From a virus: a stretch of DNA of 64,000 nucleotides. Shown here piece after piece: positions 24,959 through 36,358 of the stretch. Location of the stretch: positions 1 to 64,000 of IMG/VR virus record IMGVR_UViG_3300035204_001725; one strand, 5' to 3'. Both the position numbers and the translations under genes were made by a program. The notes under the pieces are model-generated. The model searched no databases and had not been told where the DNA came from. It worked only from the letters and a program-made list of their open reading frames with translations. Every line of letters starts with the position of its first letter. The stretch's first letter is position 1.

Positions 24959-25543
24959 ATGGCATCAAAATTATTACCATTTAGACAAATCGACGAGCAA
25001 GATGTAGTAAACATGTTCGCGTATGACGGTACTACCGCTCAGCGGGGCTTAATTGTCAAGCTCAAAACTACAGCAGGGTGGAAACTGTCAGACGCTCACG
25101 AGCTTTCTGCAGTTAGCCCGAACAACAGCTATACTAACACGGTTACTGATCGTTATGCTGTCAAAGCCCGAGTGGAAACTTGTGCATCTGGCAACACACC
25201 TTTCGGTATGCTTATGTATGACGTAGCTGAGACGGATGAGAACGGGGAAAAGCTTATTTGGCATCCTCGTAAAGCTCATGAAATGCAAGTGTCTGTTAGC
25301 GGTCAAGCCGTTCCTGTATTAACCAAGGGCATTGTCCTTCTTAATATGGCTGACGCGGATCGCAACAATGTAGCAATCGCAGCCGGTACCGAAGCTTACG
25401 CTGGTGCTGCTGGTGCGGTTATTGCTCATAGCAGCGCTTCTGGCACTGGACTTAAAAGAGTCGGGACCTTCTTAGGCGCCCGTGAGACTACAGGCGAAGT
25501 CCTTGTGAAGCTAGACTTCCAAGGTGTAATCGACAAGGCCTAA
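24959..25543 (+). CDS. Capsid decoration/stabilisation protein candidate
   Basis: AATAGGAGAAATATAAA before the ATG is an excellent ribosome site, nearly the same as that of the next gene, so both are expected to be made in large amounts. The 194-residue product is beta-rich, Ala/Gly/Val-rich and without Cys clusters, as expected of a cement protein. It lies between scaffold and major capsid genes, the usual decoration-protein position. Identification is by context and composition. Confidence 0.6.
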   Translation: MASKLLPFRQIDEQDVVNMFAYDGTTAQRGLIVKLKTTAGWKLSDAHELSAVSPNNSYTNTVTDRYAVKARVETCASGNTPFGMLMYDVAETDENGEKLIWHPRKAHEMQVSVSGQAVPVLTKGIVLLNMADADRNNVAIAAGTEAYAGAAGAVIAHSSASGTGLKRVGTFLGARETTGEVLVKLDFQGVIDKA

Positions 25544-25569
25544 ACAATTAACATAGGAGAAATAATATA

Positions 25570-26691
25570 ATGAAATTAAAGTTAAAAAATACTCCAGAAC
25601 AGGTAGAATTAATTAAGGCCCTTGGCTCTAAAGATCAATTTATCTCTTCAGAAGCGGCTTCCGCTTTTGCAGCATTTATTGGCCCCGTGATCTCCAAGGT
25701 CATTTCTACAGCTGGAACAGCTAATCTTATTTTTAGCGACGTAGAGTACGATGAAGATGATAGCCCAAGCTATCCGCTTGATTTATTCTATGATGAAAAG
25801 GAGGGTTATGTAACCACTTGGTCACAGAATCTTGCTGGTGGTATGCCGACCTCGCAAGTCGAGGGCGTCAAAGAAATGAAGATTGCTACCTATCGTCTCG
25901 ATAGCGCAGTAAGCTTCATGAAAAAGTATGCTCGCAAGAGTCGTCTTGATGTAATCAGCAAGGCTCTTGAGCGTATGGCACAGGAAATTCTTGTTAAGCA
26001 AGAAAGAAACGGCTGGGCTGTTGTACTTAAGGCTCTTGCCGAGTCCAGCACTTCCCATTCATCTGGTAAAGATGACTGTCACGTCCTTGCTTCTGATACG
26101 CAAGGCAGCTTTGTTGTCAACGACATGAGCAGGTTGTTAACCCTCATGAGGCGCTTAAGCACCTCTTGGTCGGGTCACACCCCTTCTGGCGGTGACTCTT
26201 ATGGACTTACCGACTTGTTCGTAAGCCCCGAGATTAAGCAACAGATTCGTGGTTTTGCTTACAATTCCATGAATGCCGGAAATGACTACGCCACGCTTCC
26301 CGATGGAACCAGACAAGGAATTTATAATTCCGCTGGCACCAACGAGATCTACGGCGTGAGAATTACTGACCTCCTTGAGCTTGGTACGTCTAAAAAGTAT
26401 AACATACTCTTTAACGACTTCAGCCCCAAGAGTGTCGGTCATACTGGTGCTTCTGGTAATGCTCAAAGCGATCCGTTCTCAACTTCGGCTGACGAACTTT
26501 TGATCGGTTTAGATGCTTCTCGCGAAGCGTTTATCCGTCCTGTCGCTCGTCAGAATGACAGTGGTGGAACCTTTAGTGCATTGCCTGATGATCAATTCGC
26601 TGCTCGTGCTGACAAGACCGGTTTTTACGGTTTCTTGGAAGAGGGCCGCGTTTGCATCGACGCAAAAGCTATCGTTGGCATGGTTGTCTAA
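25570..26691 (+). CDS. Major capsid protein
   Basis: A 373-residue product with a strong ribosome site (ATAGGAGAAATAATATA), codon use shifted toward frequent codons, and a terminator right behind it, all typical of the most abundant head protein. The sequence has an N-terminal helical arm, a YDLDLFYDEKEGYVTTW-like extended loop near 62-80, a spine-helix region (KSRLDVISKALERMAQEILVK split over 110-135) and a Gly/Ala-rich C-terminal domain with NEIYGVRIT, all compatible with the HK97 fold. Position after scaffold supports the call. No cleavage site can be stated with confidence. Confidence 0.8.
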   Translation: MKLKLKNTPEQVELIKALGSKDQFISSEAASAFAAFIGPVISKVISTAGTANLIFSDVEYDEDDSPSYPLDLFYDEKEGYVTTWSQNLAGGMPTSQVEGVKEMKIATYRLDSAVSFMKKYARKSRLDVISKALERMAQEILVKQERNGWAVVLKALAESSTSHSSGKDDCHVLASDTQGSFVVNDMSRLLTLMRRLSTSWSGHTPSGGDSYGLTDLFVSPEIKQQIRGFAYNSMNAGNDYATLPDGTRQGIYNSAGTNEIYGVRITDLLELGTSKKYNILFNDFSPKSVGHTGASGNAQSDPFSTSADELLIGLDASREAFIRPVARQNDSGGTFSALPDDQFAARADKTGFYGFLEEGRVCIDAKAIVGMVV

Positions 26692-26712
26692 GACATTATG
26701 CTGAAAATTATT

Positions 26713-26743
26713 ACTCGGGGGGGAAACTCCCCGAGTTTTTTTT
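26713..26743 (+). terminator. Rho-independent terminator after capsid gene
   Basis: ACTCGGGG (26713-26720), loop GGGAAACT, CCCCGAGT (26729-26736), then a run of T. It ends the head transcription unit. Confidence 0.92.
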
Positions 26744-26770
26744 GCTTTTAATTGTGTAATATATTATAAT
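26742..26770 (+). promoter_or_regulatory. Sigma70-like promoter with GTGTAAT element
   Basis: TTGCTT (26742-26747), 17-nt spacer, TATAAT (26765-26770). The spacer includes GTGTAAT (26754-26760), the recurrent element. It would start the first fibre-region transcript just after the capsid terminator. Confidence 0.6.
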
Positions 26771-26790
26771 AGACAGCGAATTTTACCATT

Positions 26791-28296
26791 ATGGCTAGGA
26801 ACAAATACAAAAGCGAGCCAAGGCCCGAAGAGAAGCCCAAGGGGTATTTACAGATAGAAAAGAATTTCAGCGTTCCCCTGTCTAAGACTCCTTATTTAAA
26901 CGATGAGGGAGTTTTGTCCGTAGAAAATATAGAAGAAAGGACCAGTAGTGACTTGTCCTTTCAGTACGATAAGAAGAACGAGTCTTTTCTTTTTGCTAAA
27001 AACCTAGATACAAATACTGAAGTCCAATACGTTCCGAAGTATGTAGACAAAGTCTATAAAACGAAAGTATCTTTCAAAGGCGAAATAAAAGAGGCCTTTG
27101 CTGTTTATAGAAACGAAGTGAAAAGGTTTATTATTGAAGAACTGGATCGATATACCTGTCTACCCAAAGCGCACAAAAAAGAGATAGATACCATTTTGAA
27201 AGCGAAAAATCAGTATATTTTTACTGAAGATATCGGAGGAATGAACTGGAATAAAGTATATATTGACGCCACCTCTTTTGGCCCTTATAATTATGACGTT
27301 AATCTTTATGTGTCAAAAGATATAGAAATGATTAACGATTTAATTGTTGTAAAGACCGGATATTTTGACGCAGTAACGGCCCTACCGAGCGGAGGGAAAC
27401 ACGTAGCTTGGGTCTCTTCTCACGACGCGGTATCTTATTCGGACCCGACGATGTACCATTCCACTGGGTATTGGTATACCAACAGGGCGACGGGTGATTA
27501 TATTGATAGCCCTTACGCTTCTGGCGCGACCTCTTTTAATAGAAATTTCGGAGTAACAAATACAGGTATTACAAATGCACTGACTTCTAAATTTAATATT
27601 ATCGCTAAAGGGCAGAACCTGTATAGCGGAACTAGATATACTAATACAGTAAATGGTTTTGGTTACGAAAGGCAAAATCCATTAATTGATGATTTCTCAT
27701 ATGTTTATGAAGAAAGCGGAAGGTATAGAACTACGTTTAACGATGTGGGCTGGAATGGTGTGATTCCTTCTGGGGTTCCATTTTCCATAGAGACTTGGTC
27801 TACAAATCCTAGATATATTGGTTTTGATGGAGAAATTACTATTAAACCAACCGGAGTTAACGATCCAACTTGTACTTATTCTGCCACAATTGAAGGGACG
27901 GCTCAATCTAAAGATTACCAAAAATCAATTAGGTACGCAATGGCTGCAGCAAAGAAAAAGTTTTATAAAAATTTAAATAAAATTTTAATACAAAAAGGTA
28001 TAAAAAAGAAAAATTCTAGAATTACAAGGTACGAAAAAATGCTAGAAAGAGTGGCTCAAAATGTTTATGATGGTCTCACCGTGGTCAGAAATGAGAATAT
28101 AGCAAAAACACAAGGGCTTGAGTCTAATCCGTTGGACTCTCCGGTATACTATGACGGGACGGCAAAGATGTACGATGGAGACAACTCTACGTCTTTGTAT
28201 GATGCTAACAAGACTCGCGCATATAGACTAGAATCGGGCTCTGCGGCGCAATCACAAACAAGTAGTAGTAGCAGTAGCAGCGGAGGGAGTTATTAA
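26791..28296 (+). CDS. Hypothetical virion protein, Ser-rich C-terminus
   Basis: A 501-residue protein that opens the fibre region. The N-terminal 130 residues are charged (PRPEEKPKGYLQIEKNF), the middle 200-390 is beta-rich and aromatic (many Tyr, Gly, Asn), and residues about 375-440 form a basic helix before a Gln/Ser tail. No domain is recognised. Context (between capsid and fibres, promoter just upstream) suggests a structural role such as a head fibre or connector. Confidence 0.6.
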   Translation: MARNKYKSEPRPEEKPKGYLQIEKNFSVPLSKTPYLNDEGVLSVENIEERTSSDLSFQYDKKNESFLFAKNLDTNTEVQYVPKYVDKVYKTKVSFKGEIKEAFAVYRNEVKRFIIEELDRYTCLPKAHKKEIDTILKAKNQYIFTEDIGGMNWNKVYIDATSFGPYNYDVNLYVSKDIEMINDLIVVKTGYFDAVTALPSGGKHVAWVSSHDAVSYSDPTMYHSTGYWYTNRATGDYIDSPYASGATSFNRNFGVTNTGITNALTSKFNIIAKGQNLYSGTRYTNTVNGFGYERQNPLIDDFSYVYEESGRYRTTFNDVGWNGVIPSGVPFSIETWSTNPRYIGFDGEITIKPTGVNDPTCTYSATIEGTAQSKDYQKSIRYAMAAAKKKFYKNLNKILIQKGIKKKNSRITRYEKMLERVAQNVYDGLTVVRNENIAKTQGLESNPLDSPVYYDGTAKMYDGDNSTSLYDANKTRAYRLESGSAAQSQTSSSSSSSGGSY

Positions 28297-28299
28297 ATT

Positions 28300-29802
28300 A
28301 TGAGCAGTTATAAGCCGCCCGTTAGGAGCAATAAGATAAATAGGAACTTTCAAATAAAAGTACATTTGTACTTTAACCCTAATTCTTTTAATAGATCTAC
28401 AGATCCAACGCCGAGGTTTTATTTGGCGCCCATAGAGCTGTTACATGTAGAAGACGCGGCTTTTTCAGATAAAGCAGAAGAAAACGGGTATGTTAGGTAT
28501 GCGAATAACTATTGGAGATATAAGGACAACACCTCCCTGTCAGAGTCTGAAGTTTTATCTATTTACGAAAAAATAAAAACTAGTTATCCGTATGGATATA
28601 TAACAAATGACCCAGCGTCTATTAATAAATATATTGCTGACGTAAAAGAAAATGAAGGCTTTCAGTCCTTTTATAAAAAATATTGGGAAAATAACTCGGC
28701 AAAAATTATCGAGCCAAGTTTCGCCTCAGACGGAACAAAGGAATATCCTTATTCATATATAGAATTTACAATAAACGAAATTGTTACTCAAAAATATACG
28801 GTGGGCACCGTTCCAGCCCTAGAAGATGGTTTAACAACTGCCGCGGAGTATGGAACAGGCACAATTTATTCAGAGCCAAGTATGTGGGCTTGTAACGACG
28901 ACATTATTCAAGTCGGAACAAACGGTACAAGATTTTCTGTGCAAGGTATTCCTCATTACTCATTAAAACTTCAAACTAGCGGAAAATATAGAATTGATTT
29001 AATGTCAGATCTTGAAGGCTATAATTCAATGTACGTATGGCCCACGGGAGGGTCTTATGGCGGTTATAGCGGTTATAGATTTAGACTAAGCACCGGGATA
29101 GATGGTAGTCACAATGGGTTTTCTGATTATACGAACGGAGTAAGCTACATCGAGACGCCTGAAGTAGGTAATTTTTTTACGAAAGTTATTCCAAAAACTA
29201 GCTATTTGGGCGGCAACGACGATACACACCCATATTATTATAGCGGAAGCTCAGATGGTTTTGGTTTAAGCGGGAGTGGGTCGGGAACGCTAGCAACGGG
29301 TATTAATATTAGCGGCTTTGGATATGATGAGGCCCCGCTTCTTACTTTAAGAAAACGCTCAACTTATTACTTTAATCAATATGACAGTTCTAACGTTGGG
29401 CATCCCTTGTATATAAGCACTCATCCGTCTGGTCAGGGTTCTCACCTATACACCTCCGGTGTTACACATCATTTTTTTGGGGGAGACACTGTTTTAGGGG
29501 GCTCCTATTTACCCGGGACAACGGGTTACCACGTTAAATTTACGGTACCCGAAGACGCGCCGAGTACGCTTTATTACGGTTGTCTCAATCATGCGTATAT
29601 GGGGGGGCAAATTAACATTATAAGTGATCAGCCTCCCGCGTCTTACACGGGAAGTATTCCGCAAGAAAGTATCCTTATAGATTTAAGCAGTAACACAGAG
29701 GAAAAGACGATACATTACTACTCTCCTGACGTATCAGGTATGGGCGGAAGAGTTTTTATCAAAAATGACTGCTCGGATGACGTTTTGTTTGCGAATTATT
29801 AG
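28300..29802 (+). CDS. Virion protein with cupredoxin-like domain
   Basis: The 500-residue protein is Tyr/Gly/Ser-rich and probably structural. Its last third carries a cupredoxin-like fold: an upstream ligand histidine in NVGHPLYIS, then TLYYGCLNHAYMGGQINI, where Cys-x2-His-x2-Met is the classic type 1 copper ligand set. Similar 'YYxCxNHxxMGG' domains occur in marine bacterial and phage proteins. A copper site could stabilise the domain or do redox chemistry; neither can be told from sequence. It precedes the group I intron region. Confidence 0.7.
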   Translation: MSSYKPPVRSNKINRNFQIKVHLYFNPNSFNRSTDPTPRFYLAPIELLHVEDAAFSDKAEENGYVRYANNYWRYKDNTSLSESEVLSIYEKIKTSYPYGYITNDPASINKYIADVKENEGFQSFYKKYWENNSAKIIEPSFASDGTKEYPYSYIEFTINEIVTQKYTVGTVPALEDGLTTAAEYGTGTIYSEPSMWACNDDIIQVGTNGTRFSVQGIPHYSLKLQTSGKYRIDLMSDLEGYNSMYVWPTGGSYGGYSGYRFRLSTGIDGSHNGFSDYTNGVSYIETPEVGNFFTKVIPKTSYLGGNDDTHPYYYSGSSDGFGLSGSGSGTLATGINISGFGYDEAPLLTLRKRSTYYFNQYDSSNVGHPLYISTHPSGQGSHLYTSGVTHHFFGGDTVLGGSYLPGTTGYHVKFTVPEDAPSTLYYGCLNHAYMGGQINIISDQPPASYTGSIPQESILIDLSSNTEEKTIHYYSPDVSGMGGRVFIKNDCSDDVLFANY

Positions 29803-29809
29803 AATTTAT

Positions 29810-29838
29810 TTGACTTAAATAATTTAATACTGTATAAT
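29810..29838 (+). promoter_or_regulatory. Strong sigma70-like promoter before group I element
   Basis: TTGACT (29810-29815), 17-nt spacer, TATAAT (29833-29838), seven bases after the upstream stop codon. It is the best consensus promoter seen in the window. Expected start about 29845, so the transcript would begin just before intron helix P3. Confidence 0.65.
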
Positions 29839-29844
29839 ATAATA

Positions 29845-30145
29845 GATTTAAATCGGCCTTATTGGGTGAATTCGGTAGAACTCTCTCGTAGACAATACCG
29901 AGCCAAGTCGGAAGTGGGCTTAGTGCTTCCGAAGGGTGTAGAGACTAGAGGGTGAGTCCCAACAATAACCCCTCCACGAGCGCCCAACACCGAAAGGTGA
30001 AGATATAGTCCGAACTGTATGGCGACATACAGAAGTCGTAATTAAAAAAGCGACGGTAACATATTGGATTACGTGATTGGTGCAGTGTACTAACTAGGGA
30101 CCATGCAGTTTCTAGCCAAGTAAACTAAATTGCGTGTCGGCTGAA
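29845..30145 (+). ncRNA. Group I intron (IA-type core), no ORF
   Basis: The only gene-free stretch over 300 bases. The catalytic core can be drawn directly: P3 TTGGGTG (29862-29868) with CGCCCAA (29981-29987); P4 TCGGTA (29872-29877) with TACCGA (29896-29901), followed by GAGCCAAG as in element Q; P6 TCGGAAG (29908-29914) with CTTCCGA (29926-29932); P7 GACTA (29943-29947) with TAGTC (30006-30010); P8 CACC-GAAA-GGTG (29988-29999); J8/7 AAGATA; P9 CTGTATG-GCGA-CATACAG (30015-30032). Elements R (GTGTAGAGACTAGA) and S (AAGATATAGTCC) are near consensus. An extra stem between P7 and P3' (GAGGGT/ACCCCTC) fits subgroup IA. Splice sites, P1 and the interrupted gene are not identified; ends are approximate. 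Confidence 0.85.
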
Positions 30146-30159
30146 CCCCAATTAATATT

Positions 30160-30546
30160 ATGGCTAAAAAAAAGAAAAGCGCGAAAGCGTCAAAGAAAAA
30201 GGTAGAACTAAAAGAGATGGATCAAACCGATGGAATGGACCAGACCGAAAAGAAGTTTCAATCCTCTACGTTGGATCAAGTGTGGGGAGATGATGGAACC
30301 TCTCAGTACAGGACCATGGACGCTGAAGTTTATGAAAAGGTTATTCATAACATGTCTAAAGCCGACTTGAAAGCAGAAGCAATTAGGGTTGGACTATTGC
30401 CTATTGATAATGTTGATCAGCTTGTAATTAGGCTGGTTAGGCAATTTAATTCACACGTGTCCGCATATAAAATGCCTCTTGATCAACAAAAAAAGGGGAT
30501 GACTCTAAGTGAAGAGTCTATGAAAATTCTGGGAGAAGGTAAATAA
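30160..30546 (+). CDS. Hypothetical Lys-rich protein with SAP/Rho-N-like segment
   Basis: The 128-residue protein begins with a basic tract (KKKKSAKASKKK), has a charged middle, and ends with a helical segment (ADLKAEAIRVGL, then VDQLVIRLVRQF) reminiscent of SAP or Rho N-terminal helix-extended-helix domains that bind nucleic acid. It follows the group I element; an in-frame TGA at 30138 separates it from intron sequence. It may be a virion or DNA-associated protein. No firm family. Confidence 0.55.
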   Translation: MAKKKKSAKASKKKVELKEMDQTDGMDQTEKKFQSSTLDQVWGDDGTSQYRTMDAEVYEKVIHNMSKADLKAEAIRVGLLPIDNVDQLVIRLVRQFNSHVSAYKMPLDQQKKGMTLSEESMKILGEGK

Positions 30547-30568
30547 TTTCTCAATAACCTAAGCAACG

Positions 30569-30584
30569 AGTGTAATATCTATAT
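30569..30584 (+). promoter_or_regulatory. Recurrent AGTGTAAT-type element
   Basis: AGTGTAATATCTATAT ends 6 nt before the ATG at 30591, which has no Shine-Dalgarno. One of seven related elements. Confidence 0.45.
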
Positions 30585-30590
30585 GGTATT

Positions 30591-30950
30591 ATGGCACTCG
30601 TTAATTACAATTTAGACATTATTCAGGGCTCTACTTTTTCCGCCCAACTTATTGCGAAAAACGCTGATGGTACAGCCGTCAATTTAACTGACTATTCAGT
30701 TAGGGGCGTTATGAAATATAATTACGGCACGGGTGTGTCCCTGCTTAACTTAAACCCTTCTGTAAATACAACCTCTCCGAACACTGCTGCGAGCGGTGTC
30801 ATTGATGTAAGCATATCCGCTGCGGCTGCATCAGCCTTACCTGTTACCGTGGGCGTCTATGATATAGAAATGTATAACAACAACGAAACCGAGGTTAAGA
30901 AACTGCTTGACGGTAGAATTAAGGTATATCCGGAAGTCACCAATATTTAA
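30591..30950 (+). CDS. Small Ig-like phage structural protein
   Basis: A 119-residue beta-sandwich protein. The opening 'LDIIQGSTFSAQLIAKNADG' with NLTDYSVRGVMKY and a C-terminal VYDIEMYNNNETEVKKLLDG matches a known type of small phage structural protein in which each strand is short and the chain ends with GRIKVYPEVT. These are usually fibre- or baseplate-associated. It precedes a fibre gene by five bases. Confidence 0.55.
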   Translation: MALVNYNLDIIQGSTFSAQLIAKNADGTAVNLTDYSVRGVMKYNYGTGVSLLNLNPSVNTTSPNTAASGVIDVSISAAAASALPVTVGVYDIEMYNNNETEVKKLLDGRIKVYPEVTNI

Positions 30951-30955
30951 AGTGA

Positions 30956-32038
30956 ATGCCGAACGATCCACAAAAAATTAATGTAGTCATATCTGGCAGT
31001 CCAGACGCGCAGGTAGTTTACCCTAGTGCGAATACAATTAATTTAAACCAAACTTCGAGCACGGTTAACGTTACGCAGTCCTCTTCTTCGTCGTCTGTAT
31101 CGTCCACTCCAGAGTCTAATATAAATGTAGGCTTCATGGGTATTCAGGGTATAGCTGGAAGCGCTGTCACCGCTCCGGGAGCAGCTTTAGACGGAGAAGT
31201 ATTATATAACGAAAATGGTTATGTTTCTGGTGCTCGGGGGTTCTTTTATAATAAAGGTGCGAGTGAAATTAAAATAAGCGGAAATAATTTACTGTTGACT
31301 AGTGGGAGCACGGCTGTTTTATCTGGAACGACTGACGAAAGTGCGTTCTTACTTAGAGATGCTAACGCAGACCTACTCAAGGTTGATACTAAAAATAAAA
31401 AAATATTATTATCAAATAATACTTCATCAACTCAATACCGGATAGGAATTGGAGGGGATACGCCTCGGGAAAAAGTACATATATCAGGTGGCAACTTAAG
31501 GGTAGATGGAAACATGTTAGTAAGTGGCAATATTCTTCCCCTAAAGAGCGGTGAATTTAATTTGGGCTCTCCCACTTTTCCGTTCAAGGACGTATATCTT
31601 CATGGAGATAGTATTGTTTTCGTTGATAAAGACTCAAAGATAACCGCGTCAAATACAGGCTTTTCTTTTCAGGTTACTAACGCTGAAGGGGTGACTAGGG
31701 AAATAGGTTCAATTACAACAGAAAACGTGGGGATATTTAAAGGTGACGGCTCGGGATTAACTGGGGTTAAATATAGCGGTTTACAGGACGCTGGAGCATT
31801 TATACAACAAGTAGTACCAAGCGGATCAGAAAAGGTAACCGTTGACTATGGTAAAACTTTGAATTATGACCCCGCCGTTATATGCGCTCTTACCTCGCCC
31901 ACGGGCAATAACAATGCTTATTTTACACATGTAGAAAGCATTTCTAGAACCGGCTGTAAGGCCCTTTTTAGTGAAAATATTGACGGAAATGGATTTATCT
32001 TAAATTCTCACATTTCTCCCATAAACCCAGTATTTTAA
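30956..32038 (+). CDS. Tail fibre-like protein
   Basis: A 360-residue fibre-type protein. The first 60 residues are Ser/Thr/Gln-rich with a run of Ser; the middle has short beta motifs (KISGNNLLLTSGSTAVLSG, NLRVDGNMLVSGNI) like those of fibre shafts; the C-terminal 75 residues (from VTVDYGKTLNYDPAV) form a compact beta domain that is related to the end of the next fibre at 32091, with shared 'FTHVESISRTGCKALFS' versus 'LHAMVTGLYTTGVHVAFS' patterns. That end domain is likely the receptor-binding or trimerising tip. Confidence 0.65.
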   Translation: MPNDPQKINVVISGSPDAQVVYPSANTINLNQTSSTVNVTQSSSSSSVSSTPESNINVGFMGIQGIAGSAVTAPGAALDGEVLYNENGYVSGARGFFYNKGASEIKISGNNLLLTSGSTAVLSGTTDESAFLLRDANADLLKVDTKNKKILLSNNTSSTQYRIGIGGDTPREKVHISGGNLRVDGNMLVSGNILPLKSGEFNLGSPTFPFKDVYLHGDSIVFVDKDSKITASNTGFSFQVTNAEGVTREIGSITTENVGIFKGDGSGLTGVKYSGLQDAGAFIQQVVPSGSEKVTVDYGKTLNYDPAVICALTSPTGNNNAYFTHVESISRTGCKALFSENIDGNGFILNSHISPINPVF

Positions 32039-32065
32039 TTTTCGGTATAACTCGCTAATTGCGTG

Positions 32066-32073
32066 TATAAATA
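32066..32073 (+). promoter_or_regulatory. TATAAATA late-promoter-like box
   Basis: TATAAATA is the T4-type late promoter consensus and sits 17 nt before the ATG at 32091, which also has AGGAG at 32077-32081. One match to a short AT-rich word could be chance. Confidence 0.35.
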
Positions 32074-32090
32074 GATAGGAGTTTTTAATT

Positions 32091-33866
32091 ATGGCCAATA
32101 AAGTATTTAATGTAGATCAACTAAGGTTAGGCGGCAACTTACTAACCGGTAATGTAGGCGGCGAGCTTTTCTATCAAGGAATTAAGTTAGCGAACGGCGA
32201 TTCCGCAGTTCCATTAACGAGGACGATTACTCTCGCCGGAGGTGTTAGTTATAGTGACGGCACGGACAGTAAGAGTCTTGCCACCAACTTAACTCTTCAA
32301 GTTAATGTAGACAATAGTACTATCGGAGTTAACGGCGCAGACGCGATATACGTTAAAACTGGTGGGGTTAACTGGAATCAATTGCATGCAGATGTCGCTG
32401 GCCCCGGTCTTGGTGGTGGACACACTAGTAATCTTTATGTAAATGCTGGCTCCGGTATTCAGGTCAGTAATGACCAAGTACACGTTAAGCCCTTGGGTAT
32501 CGAAACCTCCATGATCAAGGCTGACGCGGTTACAAACGATCAATTGGCTCAGATAACTGAGGTCGGAAAAATCCAAGGTGGAGCGGTCACTCTACACGGA
32601 ACTACCCTAGCGACAGGATCTACTAAGGGGTTAATGATTAAGGCTGGCGGAGTCGGCCTAGATGAAATTTCTACTAACATAGCTGGTAACGGTCTTCAAG
32701 GTGGAGGCGGTAGTAAAATTGATATTGTTCCAGCGTTTGGTTCGGGCATCGCCGTAAGCTCTACCGAGATCGGCGTTGGTCTCTTGGGCGTTACAAACGC
32801 CATGTTGGCTGGTAGTATCACCAACGGTAAATTAGAAGACATTACTACTACTAACAAGGTATACGGTGGAGCGGTAAGGCATGACTCTACCCTCGGTGTA
32901 ACGAGTAACAACCTTCATATCGCTTCTCAAGGCGTTAACGTAAATCAACTTCATTCTAATGTAGCAGGTAATGGTATTAACGGAGGTAATGGTGCTCAAC
33001 TTACTGCGGATCCGGGTTCCGGTATCGTAGTTAACACCAACGGCATTAACATTGGTCCTACTGGTGTTCTTACCAGCATGATCAAAGACGGTCAGGTTAC
33101 CAATGCTAAGTTGGCCGGATCGATCGACTCTAGTAAGCTGAATCTGGTCGGGGGCTCTGGTCTAGTCCTAAATGGTAACGACATGGACGCCGGCGCCGGC
33201 GACGGTATTAACGTAACCGCTAATGCTATCAGCGTTGATTCTACCGTTGTTAGAACTAACGCTACACAAACTTTAGACGGAAATTACACTTTCAATAATG
33301 CTGTAACTTTCGAAACGGGAATCTTAGTTAAAGGTGATCTAACTGTTAAAGGTCAAACGATCCTTCTTGATTCCAATACAGTAAATATCGGTGACAATAT
33401 TATCGTCCTTAATGCCGACTATGCGGGCACTGAAGCTGCAGCGGTAGACGCCGGTATTGAAATCGAACGTGGACAAGCGACTAACAACGCTTACATACTT
33501 TTCGATGATTATCAAAGCGACGTCTGGAAAATCGGTACGGCGCCCGCTAATGCGGCAGATCCGTCTGCCTCACTTTATCAAGTGCATAGTGCTGAGTTTA
33601 CTCGCTCTTACTCCGCGGAAATTAGTTCTGGCGTATGTTACTATCACCTACCGTTTGCACACACTTTCTCATCACTGCCCAATGTGACCGTGTCCTTAGA
33701 GCACACTGGCAAATACAGCATAAACAATCCCGACCTACTCCATGCGATGGTGACCGGCCTATATACAACTGGCGTACACGTGGCATTTTCTGCGAATACT
33801 CCTGCATCTGGTTATTTCTTACACGCTAACGTTTCTTCAGTAGGAACAAGAACGGTTCTTAGTTAA
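32091..33866 (+). CDS. Repetitive tail fibre protein
   Basis: AGGAG precedes the ATG well spaced. The 591-residue protein opens KVFNVDQLRLGGNLL and repeats units of about 90 residues with VNWNQLHADVAG, VGLDEISTNIAGNG and VNVNQLHSNVAGNG, and ATSMIK-TNDQLA-type segments, which indicates a beta-solenoid or triple-stranded shaft. Codon use looks shifted to frequent codons, as in capsid and tube genes, so it is probably abundant. Its C-terminal 75 residues are related to the end of the preceding fibre. A terminator follows. Confidence 0.75.
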   Translation: MANKVFNVDQLRLGGNLLTGNVGGELFYQGIKLANGDSAVPLTRTITLAGGVSYSDGTDSKSLATNLTLQVNVDNSTIGVNGADAIYVKTGGVNWNQLHADVAGPGLGGGHTSNLYVNAGSGIQVSNDQVHVKPLGIETSMIKADAVTNDQLAQITEVGKIQGGAVTLHGTTLATGSTKGLMIKAGGVGLDEISTNIAGNGLQGGGGSKIDIVPAFGSGIAVSSTEIGVGLLGVTNAMLAGSITNGKLEDITTTNKVYGGAVRHDSTLGVTSNNLHIASQGVNVNQLHSNVAGNGINGGNGAQLTADPGSGIVVNTNGINIGPTGVLTSMIKDGQVTNAKLAGSIDSSKLNLVGGSGLVLNGNDMDAGAGDGINVTANAISVDSTVVRTNATQTLDGNYTFNNAVTFETGILVKGDLTVKGQTILLDSNTVNIGDNIIVLNADYAGTEAAAVDAGIEIERGQATNNAYILFDDYQSDVWKIGTAPANAADPSASLYQVHSAEFTRSYSAEISSGVCYYHLPFAHTFSSLPNVTVSLEHTGKYSINNPDLLHAMVTGLYTTGVHVAFSANTPASGYFLHANVSSVGTRTVLS

Positions 33867-33917
33867 GGCGATCCGTCCTCTATTAACATAGAATATACAT
33901 AATTCAGCCTTATAATC

Positions 33918-33947
33918 AAACCTCACTGAAAAGTGGGGTTTTTTTAT
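33918..33947 (+). terminator. Rho-independent terminator after fibre gene
   Basis: AAACCTCACT (33918-33927), loop GAAA, AGTGGGGTTT (33932-33941, one G-T pair), then T-rich tail. Confidence 0.9.
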
Positions 33948-33976
33948 TTACATTTCTTATTATTTAAAAATATAAT
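33947..33976 (+). promoter_or_regulatory. Sigma70-like promoter
   Basis: TTTACA (33947-33952), 18-nt spacer, TATAAT (33971-33976), 20 nt before the ATG at 33997 and directly behind the terminator. Confidence 0.5.
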
Positions 33977-33996
33977 AAAAGTGGGATGCTATACCT

Positions 33997-34323
33997 ATGA
34001 ATAAACTACAAAAAAAGAAGGTAGAACAAATTACTAATTTTATAGTAAATAATATCACCTTAGCTGAAGTTAGTTCTCTAGTTGTGGAGAGAGCCTCAGA
34101 GACAGCGGAGTTTATTGTAAAAAATGAACTAGACCCGAAAGACTTTAATTCCGCGATTGCTAGAAAAAAGCTATATAAGAAAATTGTAATAAAGGACGGA
34201 AAGGTACAAATAAAAGAAGAAAAGAGTTGGTATGATAATCTATTAAATAAAATCGGAATTCGTAAGGAAGAAAAAAAAGAAAAAAAAGTAGTTACCTTAA
34301 CGACAAAGAATACTAAGGGATGA
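33997..34323 (+). CDS. Hypothetical small helical protein before collagen-like fibres
   Basis: A 108-residue, Lys/Glu-rich helical protein ([20 protein letters not shown] opening, then a long basic tail). It overlaps the collagen-like fibre start by 4 nt, so it is likely made with it and may be a fibre chaperone or a connector. No family is recognised. Confidence 0.55.
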
Positions 34324-35270
34324 ACGGAAGAAATTTATTTTTAGGTAATGTTTTAGGCCCTACGGGACCGCAAGGGCCTCCGGGCACCATAGGAGTGGAT
34401 GGAGCCACGGGAGCGACGGGCCCCTCAGGAAGCCCCGGGGGAGCAACGGGCCCAACGGGGATGACGGGACCTATAGGCCCTACGGGAGCTACGGGGCCCA
34501 AGATAAACATAACTGGTTATTCTAGTACGACTTTGACTTTGTCCGCCTTGACTACTGGAGACGCAATTACTTTTACCGTGTCTCCTTCTAGTTTAGAGTA
34601 TGCCGTAGGTCATCATATAAGGTTTTATAGTACGGGAACATCTACAGATCACGTAGAGGGCACCATATTTTATTATTCTCAAGACACGCTATCCATTAAC
34701 GCAGAAAATATCGTAGGAAACGGAACATACAGTGGGTGGAAGGTAAGTATAGCTGGAGAGAAGGGAGACAGGGGAGAGATGGGGTCCACCGGACCAGCGG
34801 GAGCATTGGGGCAGCTCCCAGCTAATTATTTTGTTAAAGCAAATAACGAAGGAATGAGTGACGTGGGAGTTTTATATCAAAGCGAAGCGGACGACTATAT
34901 CGGCGTAAATAATACGGATCCCATCGCTCATTTGGATGTAAGTGGTACCTTGAGATCAAGGAACATAAACCAAGGGGCCGCGGCGATGAGTGGTCATGTG
35001 GTAATTGATCCAGATCAGACGAGTGCTTCGTTTGGAATATTACACCATATAGTTCCCAAAGTAGAATATCAAGAATTAGCCGGGGACGGATATATTTCTG
35101 ACTTTGAATTGACCTCTTCGTGTAGGTCAAAAGACTGGTTATTCATTTGGGACGCAAATAATACGCGCCTCTATACTCCCAATGAATATGAAGTCAACGG
35201 AAAGATATTAACTTTCGCTAACGACAGCAAGCCCCCGGGAGCGTTTCAAGTAAGGCATACTATATTATAA
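34320..35270 (+). CDS. Collagen-like tail fibre
   Basis: Residues 5-60 are Gly-X-Y repeats ([10 protein letters not shown] type), followed by an approximately 90-residue beta domain ([17 protein letters not shown] to [13 protein letters not shown]) and a second short collagen run. This collagen/beta/collagen module is common in phage fibres and recurs in the genes at 36358 and 40877. The C-terminal 150 residues include a [19 protein letters not shown] segment typical of fibre ends. Overlaps its neighbours at both ends (ATGA; shared A). Confidence 0.8.
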
Positions 35271-36358
35271 TGAGTACTCAGAAAACATTTGTTACTGATA
35301 AAATACGCACTTCAGAAATTTGCGGTTTGGATGGGGGAGCCGTAACTATTTGTGGCGTCCTCGCTGACTCTAATAGTATAGAAAGTTTAAGTGGTCATTT
35401 CATAACCGGAGACAATTTGACTATTAGCGGTTTAAATGATTCTTTGATATATACTAAATCTGGAATATTTGATGTTATTAAAGCTAATGAAATAATAGTT
35501 GACGGAACTGGGAGCTTTGATGAATTAATTATTGACGGTATAAAGTATACGCCCAGAGATCATATTGCTTACGCTTTTTATTTTGGTGGCCCTCCAGTAA
35601 AAGTACCTAATAGGTTTGCTCATATAACAGGACAAGGAATACCTGATGAAAATAACCCTCAGCTTTTTACGGGATTGGCCATGGGGCAAAATTATATATT
35701 TCTCGACTCTACAGAGTCCTTTAAGTCGGGAGATCATGGGATAATTAATCCCGGGGGAGTATATAACGATGGGAAAACTCAAGAAAAATTTACGGTTTCT
35801 GGAATAGATTATTACAGACCTAGTAATTGTTGCAATGCAAAAGCTGCTGGGAGTTATGTCGCCGGAGTAGATACCGTTAGTCACCTTGACGAGGATAATG
35901 ATGGTTACCGATTTTACGGTGGAGACGTAATAAAGATCGAGGGAAGTAATACCGCATATACCGTAACTGGTACAGACGTATCTACATCAACTACTAGATA
36001 CGTCGAAGTCTCCCCCCCCTTAACTGACGCGGTTCCTTTGAGCGGGTGTCTATGTCTGGTTCATCCTACATTAAAAACTAATGAAGTTTTAAAAAACAAT
36101 TATCCACCGTGGACACGAGTAGCAAATAGGCACTCGGATCTGGTAGAAGGAAATCCCGGAACAGCTATCCCGGGATGCAGCGGTAAGTGTTATGATAATA
36201 AATATCTTTATCTTGAACAAGGAGTATATACTGGAAACTTCGATTGGTATTTAACAGGTTATAGGGAATATTTTGTAGACTTTTCTGGCATTGATGTTCA
36301 TGCTACCGGCGATAATACATCGGGCATATTAACTTTAATATATCCAGACTTAATGTAA
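35270..36358 (+). CDS. Hypothetical fibre-region virion protein
   Basis: A 362-residue protein between two collagen fibres with one-base overlaps. The first 100 residues have short repeated beta motifs like fibre shafts (HFITGDNLTISGL). The rest is Gly/Tyr/Asp-rich with several Cys, including SNCCNAK and GCLCLVH, and EEDNDGYRFYGGD-like acid loops that may bind calcium. No named domain could be assigned. Confidence 0.6.
   Translation: MSTQKTFVTDKIRTSEICGLDGGAVTICGVLADSNSIESLSGHFITGDNLTISGLNDSLIYTKSGIFDVIKANEIIVDGTGSFDELIIDGIKYTPRDHIAYAFYFGGPPVKVPNRFAHITGQGIPDENNPQLFTGLAMGQNYIFLDSTESFKSGDHGIINPGGVYNDGKTQEKFTVSGIDYYRPSNCCNAKAAGSYVAGVDTVSHLDEDNDGYRFYGGDVIKIEGSNTAYTVTGTDVSTSTTRYVEVSPPLTDAVPLSGCLCLVHPTLKTNEVLKNNYPPWTRVANRHSDLVEGNPGTAIPGCSGKCYDNKYLYLEQGVYTGNFDWYLTGYREYFVDFSGIDVHATGDNTSGILTLIYPDLM

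Follow-up and report, generated by a model that had tools for sequence, protein, structure and literature searches.

A conserved group I ribozyme without a 5′ exon precedes a phage gene start and probably trims itself off the message

A group I ribozyme is located directly upstream of a gene for a 128-amino-acid protein in the window, the whole 64,000-nucleotide stretch of DNA that was analysed, which covers almost the whole of a virus record of 64,365 bases. It follows a sigma70-type promoter motif, arose once within a clade of related phages, has no 5′ exon, and is closed by a covarying helix formed between its own two ends. The element is probably not a splicing intron. We consider it, on balance, likely to be a self-processing leader which cuts at its own 3′ end and frees an mRNA with a short leader, the ribozyme probably trimming itself off the message. 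Three options had been raised in a preliminary description of this DNA, namely a spliced leader or UTR intron, a promoter-driven free-standing ribozyme with a regulatory role, and an intron joining the flanking genes into one protein. The second of these fits best, and splicing and the fused protein are unsupported.

A scan of the window with the Rfam models identified a match to the group I intron family RF00028 at positions 29811-30032 of the plus strand (Bitscore: 64; gathering score: 50; E-value: 6.5e-14). No other Rfam family exceeded its gathering score there, and the same scan of the window found no aptamer family. Per-record searches of the 11 relatives yielded exactly one RF00028 match in each carrier record (57.9-79.2 bits), including those of L012 (71.3 bits) and L016 (72.3 bits), which were both unlisted in the locus scans. 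Together with the covariation in the 12-member alignment described below, this match identifies the element as a group I ribozyme, as had been proposed. Conservation among the 12 members starts at U29853 and stops at A30144, close to the limits of 29845-30145 first given, and the element measures 292-297 nt across the members. It contains no ORF and lies, as initially described, in the intergenic region between the stop codon of 28300-29802 and the ATG at 30160. When the single sequence was folded by minimum free energy, the group I fold did not appear (z: -1.36), as would be expected of a pseudoknotted RNA, and comparison was therefore needed to establish the structure. The P1 helix aligned by Rfam (29815-29843) was rejected, as it overlaps the promoter and is unconserved. 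The coordinates of all features are given in Table 1.

Table 1. Features of the ribozyme locus and the evidence or pairing partners associated with each.
Feature	Positions	Strand	Details
Sigma70-type promoter TTGACT-17-TATAAT, 11/12	29810..29838	+	Conserved in relatives
Group I (IA-like) ribozyme, whole conserved element	29853..30144	+	292 nt; comparison with 11 relatives
Guide strand UCGGCC	29853..29858	+	Pairs with 30139-30144 (GGCUGA), 6 bp
P3 5′ strand	29862..29868	+	Partner 29981-29987
P4 and P5	29871..29902	+	P4 29871-29876/29897-29902; P5 29882-29885/29889-29892
P6 and P6a	29903..29936	+	P6a 29908-29914/29926-29932; 6/7 P6a pairs compensatory
P7 5′ strand GACUA	29943..29947	+	Partner 30006-30010 UAGUC; guanosine-binding helix, invariant
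P7.1	29948..29974	+	29948-29952/29970-29974; three compensatory pairs
P8	29988..29999	+	12-member alignment
P9.0 5′ strand GA	30012..30013	+	Partner 30137-30138 UC; invariant in 12/12
P9	30015..30032	+	GNRA loop GCGA; GAGA and GUGA in relatives
P9.1 hairpin	30035..30054	+	Covariation alignment
P9.2	30072..30134	+	30072-30078/30128-30134; inner hairpin 30094-30100/30109-30115
3′ end UCG-GCUGA	30137..30144	+	P9.0, omega-G 30139, P10 strand
Gene led by ribozyme, 128-aa protein	30160..30546	+	Homologues follow ribozyme, or promoter, in 21 loci

The secondary structure was evaluated in the alignment of 12 members, including the window, for 15 helices comprising 80 proposed pairs. Standard pairs account for 95.9% of these (85.8% in shuffles) and 36 pairs have changed on both sides (19.0 in shuffles), values which were reached by none of the 500 shuffles, and pairing falls to 35-39% when the partner columns are slid by one to three positions. 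Compensatory changes can be observed in P3, P4, P6a, P7.1, P8, P9, P9.1 and P9.2, as well as in all seven pairs of the inner hairpin of the latter, and the fourth pair of P5 is broken in half of the members (6/12), the window among them. The core from P3 to P9, with its P3/P7 pseudoknot, therefore covaries, P7 being supported by its conservation rather than by covariation; both P7 and P9.0 fall outside covariation testing, because neither ever varies. The loop of P9 is of the GNRA type in all 12 members, and P7, P9.0, the junctions and the omega-G are invariant amid surrounding helices that vary freely, as is expected if catalysis has been selected. Extra helices between P7 and P3 (P7.1/P7.2) define the IA subgroup, P7.1 being typical of IA introns. 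The IA type proposed earlier is in agreement with the compensated P7.1 found here, an assignment which is based on this helix and on likeness to phage IA introns, as Rfam holds no subgroup model.

The 5′ end of the ribozyme pairs with its own 3′ end, a feature that had been missed in the preliminary description. This end helix, 5′ U(U/C)G(G/A)CC / 3′ GG(C/U)U(A/G)A, is 100% paired in all 12 members and shows compensatory changes, with U-A replaced by C-G in the window and L034 (U.G in L009), and G-C replaced by A-U in L053, while the pair G29855.U30142 in its middle is invariant. All 12 members end in UCGG(C/U)U(A/G)A, and the 3′ end has, at the level of sequence, the geometry of a 3′ splice site, comprising P9.0 (GA/UC), the omega-G at 30139 and P10 (UCGGC/GCUGA). 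The predicted cut lies at 30139/30140, with 30142/30143 as the alternative: if the end helix is instead taken for a P1 that draws its substrate strand from the 3′ end, the G.U pair would place the cut after U30142.

No counterpart of this arrangement is found on the 5′ side. The strand at 29853-29858 corresponds to that portion of an internal guide sequence which forms P10, the portion for P1 being missing, and only 4 nt separate the P10 strand from P3, compared to 1+6+7 (14) nt in the psbA introns of cyanophages; by this comparison, the 5′-exon-binding part of the guide is absent here. Furthermore, the upstream sequence of the 12 loci contains no 5′ exon with a terminal U.G that pairs to the guide beyond what is seen in shuffles, and hence no P1 helix with an exon ending in U. 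The argument concerning the 5′ exon rests on this pairing search and the psbA comparison, the stem test being weak in that two control introns failed it too. Given the lack of upstream exon pairing and the truncated guide, the element is therefore probably not a splicing intron. The folding of P1 and P10 suggested at the outset thus yields a compensated P10 and no P1; the remark that no exon of an interrupted gene was obvious holds for all 12 loci, and the option of a spliced leader or UTR intron loses its footing.

The position of the ribozyme relative to the promoter and the downstream start codon is likewise maintained. In 11 of the 12 carriers, the ribozyme begins 2-18 nt past the TATAAT box, the predicted transcription start in the window being near 29845. 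In L053, where the -10 box is a mere 2 nt from the guide, the start would be expected inside the guide. The exception is L016, in which an open frame of 50 codons separates the promoter from the ribozyme, so that the RNA is expected to have a longer 5′ part. This frame (L016 12107-12259) has a lipoprotein-like start and many cysteines, and the ribozyme may separate two cistrons in this phage. The sequence upstream of the ribozyme is unconserved except for the promoter. The latter had been called strong and the best of the window; it ranks level with two others within 25000-36000 and is thus not uniquely the best, but it is conserved in relatives. Downstream, the ATG of the 30160 gene homologues lies 0-33 nt past the conserved end of the ribozyme, directly adjoining the end helix in L013 (GGCUAAAUG). 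A Shine-Dalgarno sequence follows the ribozyme in three carriers, and no terminator-like site was found between the ribozyme and the ATG. In relatives without the ribozyme, a -10-like box is present 6-24 nt before the ATG of the same gene, and leaderless mRNA is predicted for the five in which this distance is 6-7 nt. As the promoter in these relatives leads to the same start codon, the ribozyme occupies what would be the mRNA leader.

Direct protein searches recovered no close IMG/VR relatives of the 28300 and 30160 proteins. A search with the capsid protein identified 26 IMG/VR loci (53-76% identity), and a search for the P9/P9.1 pattern added L046 and L053. The same ribozyme is present at the same place, before homologues of the 30160 gene, in 12 sequences including the window, while its exact pattern occurs in none of 84,980 bacterial and archaeal genomes. 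On the capsid tree, the ten carriers for which a capsid sequence is available fall into a single clade (support: 96/99), and the presence of the ribozyme requires one change on this tree (8.4 in shuffles); it therefore arose once and was then kept. The ribozyme RNAs share 72-96% identity, compared to 40-70% for the protein that they lead. Ribozyme distances correlate with those of the capsid (Mantel r: 0.64; p: 0.014), but hardly with those of the 128-amino-acid protein (r: 0.22; p: 0.08).

Other structured RNAs were observed in the course of these scans. Two relatives without the ribozyme carry a manA RNA (L017, 4499-4684) and a tRNA gene (L031, 13945-14018), respectively. Consecutive group I matches are found at 1453-1694, 1763-2091 and 2097-2418 of Pseudoalteromonas phage H101 (L002; KR534323.1), the first overlapping the end of an annotated gene and the others lying behind it, which may represent either tandem copies or three introns whose exons are tiny. 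In Acinetobacter phage ME3 (L006; KU935715.1; 1209-2031), another group I match falls in a region that carries no gene annotation; a tRNA-Met gene lies upstream of it, and the next annotated gene starts shortly after its end. It is possibly a second case outside a coding gene.

The late genes of the window include a T4-type terminase and a capsid-like protein (25570-26691), which is called the major capsid protein (MCP) from its place and conservation and matched nothing among 50,697 phage records. All known members of its family come from uncultured contigs; one of these contigs (L065) was binned with a Rickettsiales genome, providing a weak hint of the host. An intrinsic terminator (26713-26736) directly follows the capsid-like gene and is itself followed by a TATAAT box, an arrangement kept in most relatives, and terminator-plus-promoter units seem to be placed between the late genes of these phages. 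Where the ribozyme is absent, the gene order is MCP, terminator, promoter and 30160 gene. In all carriers except L053, the genes 26791 and 28300, which are structural, or their counterparts precede the promoter, ribozyme and ATG. Residues 344-441 of the 28300-29802 product match the C-terminal part of cyanophage baseplate wedge/tail fibre connector proteins. In L053, an unrelated gene of 2244 codons precedes the ribozyme; as the upstream gene thus differs and the ribozyme is constant before the 30160 homologues, the ribozyme goes with the 30160 gene rather than with its upstream neighbour. Intact, separate genes flank the ribozyme, with no exons that join into a known product. The proposed joining of 28300-29802 and 30160-30546 was rejected, since both proteins have homologues encoded as separate genes, the upstream gene of L053 is unrelated, and the second gene stands complete and alone in relatives that lack the ribozyme. 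The N-terminus of the 128-amino-acid protein is basic, and the protein contains a helical segment that is SAP/Rho-N-like by shape only. Its structural model (pLDDT: 74) shows weak fold resemblance to its best PDB match (E-value: 0.45), and searches of protein families, PDB sequences and folds assigned no function.

We suggest that, in an ancestor of the clade, a single insertion placed a group I ribozyme in the leader of the 30160 gene, downstream of the transcription start and ahead of the start codon. Since transcription would then start at the ribozyme's own 5′ end, there would be no 5′ exon and exon joining would be unneeded, and an intron at the very start of a transcript would require only the 3′ reaction for its own removal. 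The 5′-exon-binding part of the guide would subsequently have been lost, with the remainder folding back onto a 3′ end that retains 3′ splice-site geometry (P9.0, omega-G30139 and P10). We infer that the RNA is catalytic and that it affects the expression of the gene it leads. It is predicted to cut itself at 30139/30140 by hydrolysis or transesterification, or at the G.U pair, at 30142/30143, with an external guanosine. The resulting mRNA leader would be 20 or 17 nt long in the window and 5 or 2 nt long in L013, resembling the short leaders of the ribozyme-less relatives. Cutting might be dispensable for translation in the three carriers with a Shine-Dalgarno sequence behind the ribozyme.

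Conservation alone does not prove catalysis, and the group I fold may instead have been kept as a non-cutting, structured leader which protects the 5′ end, binds protein or governs access to the start codon. The abutment of the end helix and ATG in L013 would suit such a role, as would the basic downstream protein with its SAP-like segment, which could bind RNA. We nevertheless regard this reading as rather unlikely, as P7, the junctions, P9.0 and the omega-G are invariant while the helices vary. Loss of all function is a far poorer explanation: a formerly mobile intron that persists as a neutral relic could account for the fixed place and the lack of a homing endonuclease gene, yet is very improbable for an RNA with compensatory changes and 72-96% nucleotide identity next to a protein that retains only 40-70%.

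Two further readings assume that exons are joined, for which the intact core is suitable in form. A trans-splicing ribozyme, adding the 30160 exon to the 5′ exons of other transcripts, could make use of the 3′ splice site geometry and of a free 5′ end through which the guide might reach other RNAs. The guide is, however, already paired to the RNA's own 3′ end, the would-be exon-binding stretch consists only of C-N-U-A, in which N varies and a G to form the usual U.G pair is lacking, and the downstream gene has its own complete start, all of which renders this reading improbable. Transcripts of the upstream genes may cross the ribozyme, and an ordinary cis-splicing intron could then act on such read-through RNA with a short or weakly paired 5′ exon in the leader, possibly joining 28300-29802 with 30160-30546. 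This appears, if anything, marginally more improbable, as guide-exon pairing does not exceed chance in the 12 loci, nothing upstream is conserved save the promoter, the upstream gene differs in L053 and the downstream gene is complete in relatives that have no ribozyme.

Nearly all known group I ribozymes are introns, and to our knowledge the lariat-capping ribozyme is known only from protists. It has been described as a unique example of a group I ribozyme with a new job in gene expression (PMC3679873). If the self-processing leader proposed here is real, it would constitute an independent instance of an intron that has become a regulatory ribozyme: a conserved group I RNA that lacks a 5′ splice site, keeps its place in the leader of a single gene and is passed on by vertical descent within a phage clade. 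It would also demonstrate a simple route to such a function, in which an intron at the transcription start needs only the 3′ half-reaction.

The ribozyme shares its core helices and the P9.0-omega-G-P10 arrangement at its 3′ end with phage group IA introns of the cyanophage psbA and T4 td type, and the core stretch AACTCTCTCGTAGACAAT is identical in the psbA introns. In the four cyanophage psbA introns used as a control, exon 1 (GAGCGU) pairs with a GCGCUC guide and exon joining gives MHERNAHNFPLD, restoring the reading frame, whereas the ribozyme described here has no 5′ exon paired to a guide, restores no reading frame and leads an mRNA instead. A group I RNA also sets the 5′ part of a bacterial message in the c-di-GMP aptamer/group I tandem in a 5′ UTR of Clostridioides difficile (PMC3984707); there, the 5′ splice sites are chosen by the aptamer, whereas no aptamer family was found at the present ribozyme. 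The order of ribozyme and substrate strands is altered both here and in a permuted group I precursor of mushroom coral mitochondria (cited in PMC8637638). The latter back-splices exons; in the present RNA, the resemblance is limited to the end helix, which looks like a P1 that receives its strand from the 3′ end. Searches of open-access literature yielded no paper describing natural permuted or leader group I ribozymes in phages, nor a known bacterial or phage group I RNA working as a self-trimming leader.

In function, the nearest parallel is the lariat-capping ribozyme (GIR1) of Didymium, Naegleria and Allovahlkampfia, which is group I derived, joins no exons and acts at its P9/P10 junction, located a few nucleotides upstream of the AUG of a protein gene (PMC3679873, PMC4167309). 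Here too, the P9.0-omega-G-P10 arrangement lies just before an AUG. The present ribozyme differs in being located outside any other intron, behind its own promoter, and in leading a gene without a recognised homing endonuclease. It is not a member of the GIR1 family, as the region 29500-30600 contains no match to the lariat-capping model RF01807 up to an E-value of 1, and the three or four nucleotides between the end-helix strand and P3 leave no place for the 5′ strand of P15; judged from this spacing, the P3/P15 pseudoknot and P2.1 appear to be absent. We raise, as a tentative and more far-reaching idea, that this phage lineage may have converted a group I intron into a ribozyme which resides permanently in an mRNA leader and matures the 5′ end of the message of a capsid-adjacent gene, perhaps with a lariat or guanosine cap, and which would be the separately evolved, bacterial-virus counterpart of the eukaryotic lariat-capping ribozyme.
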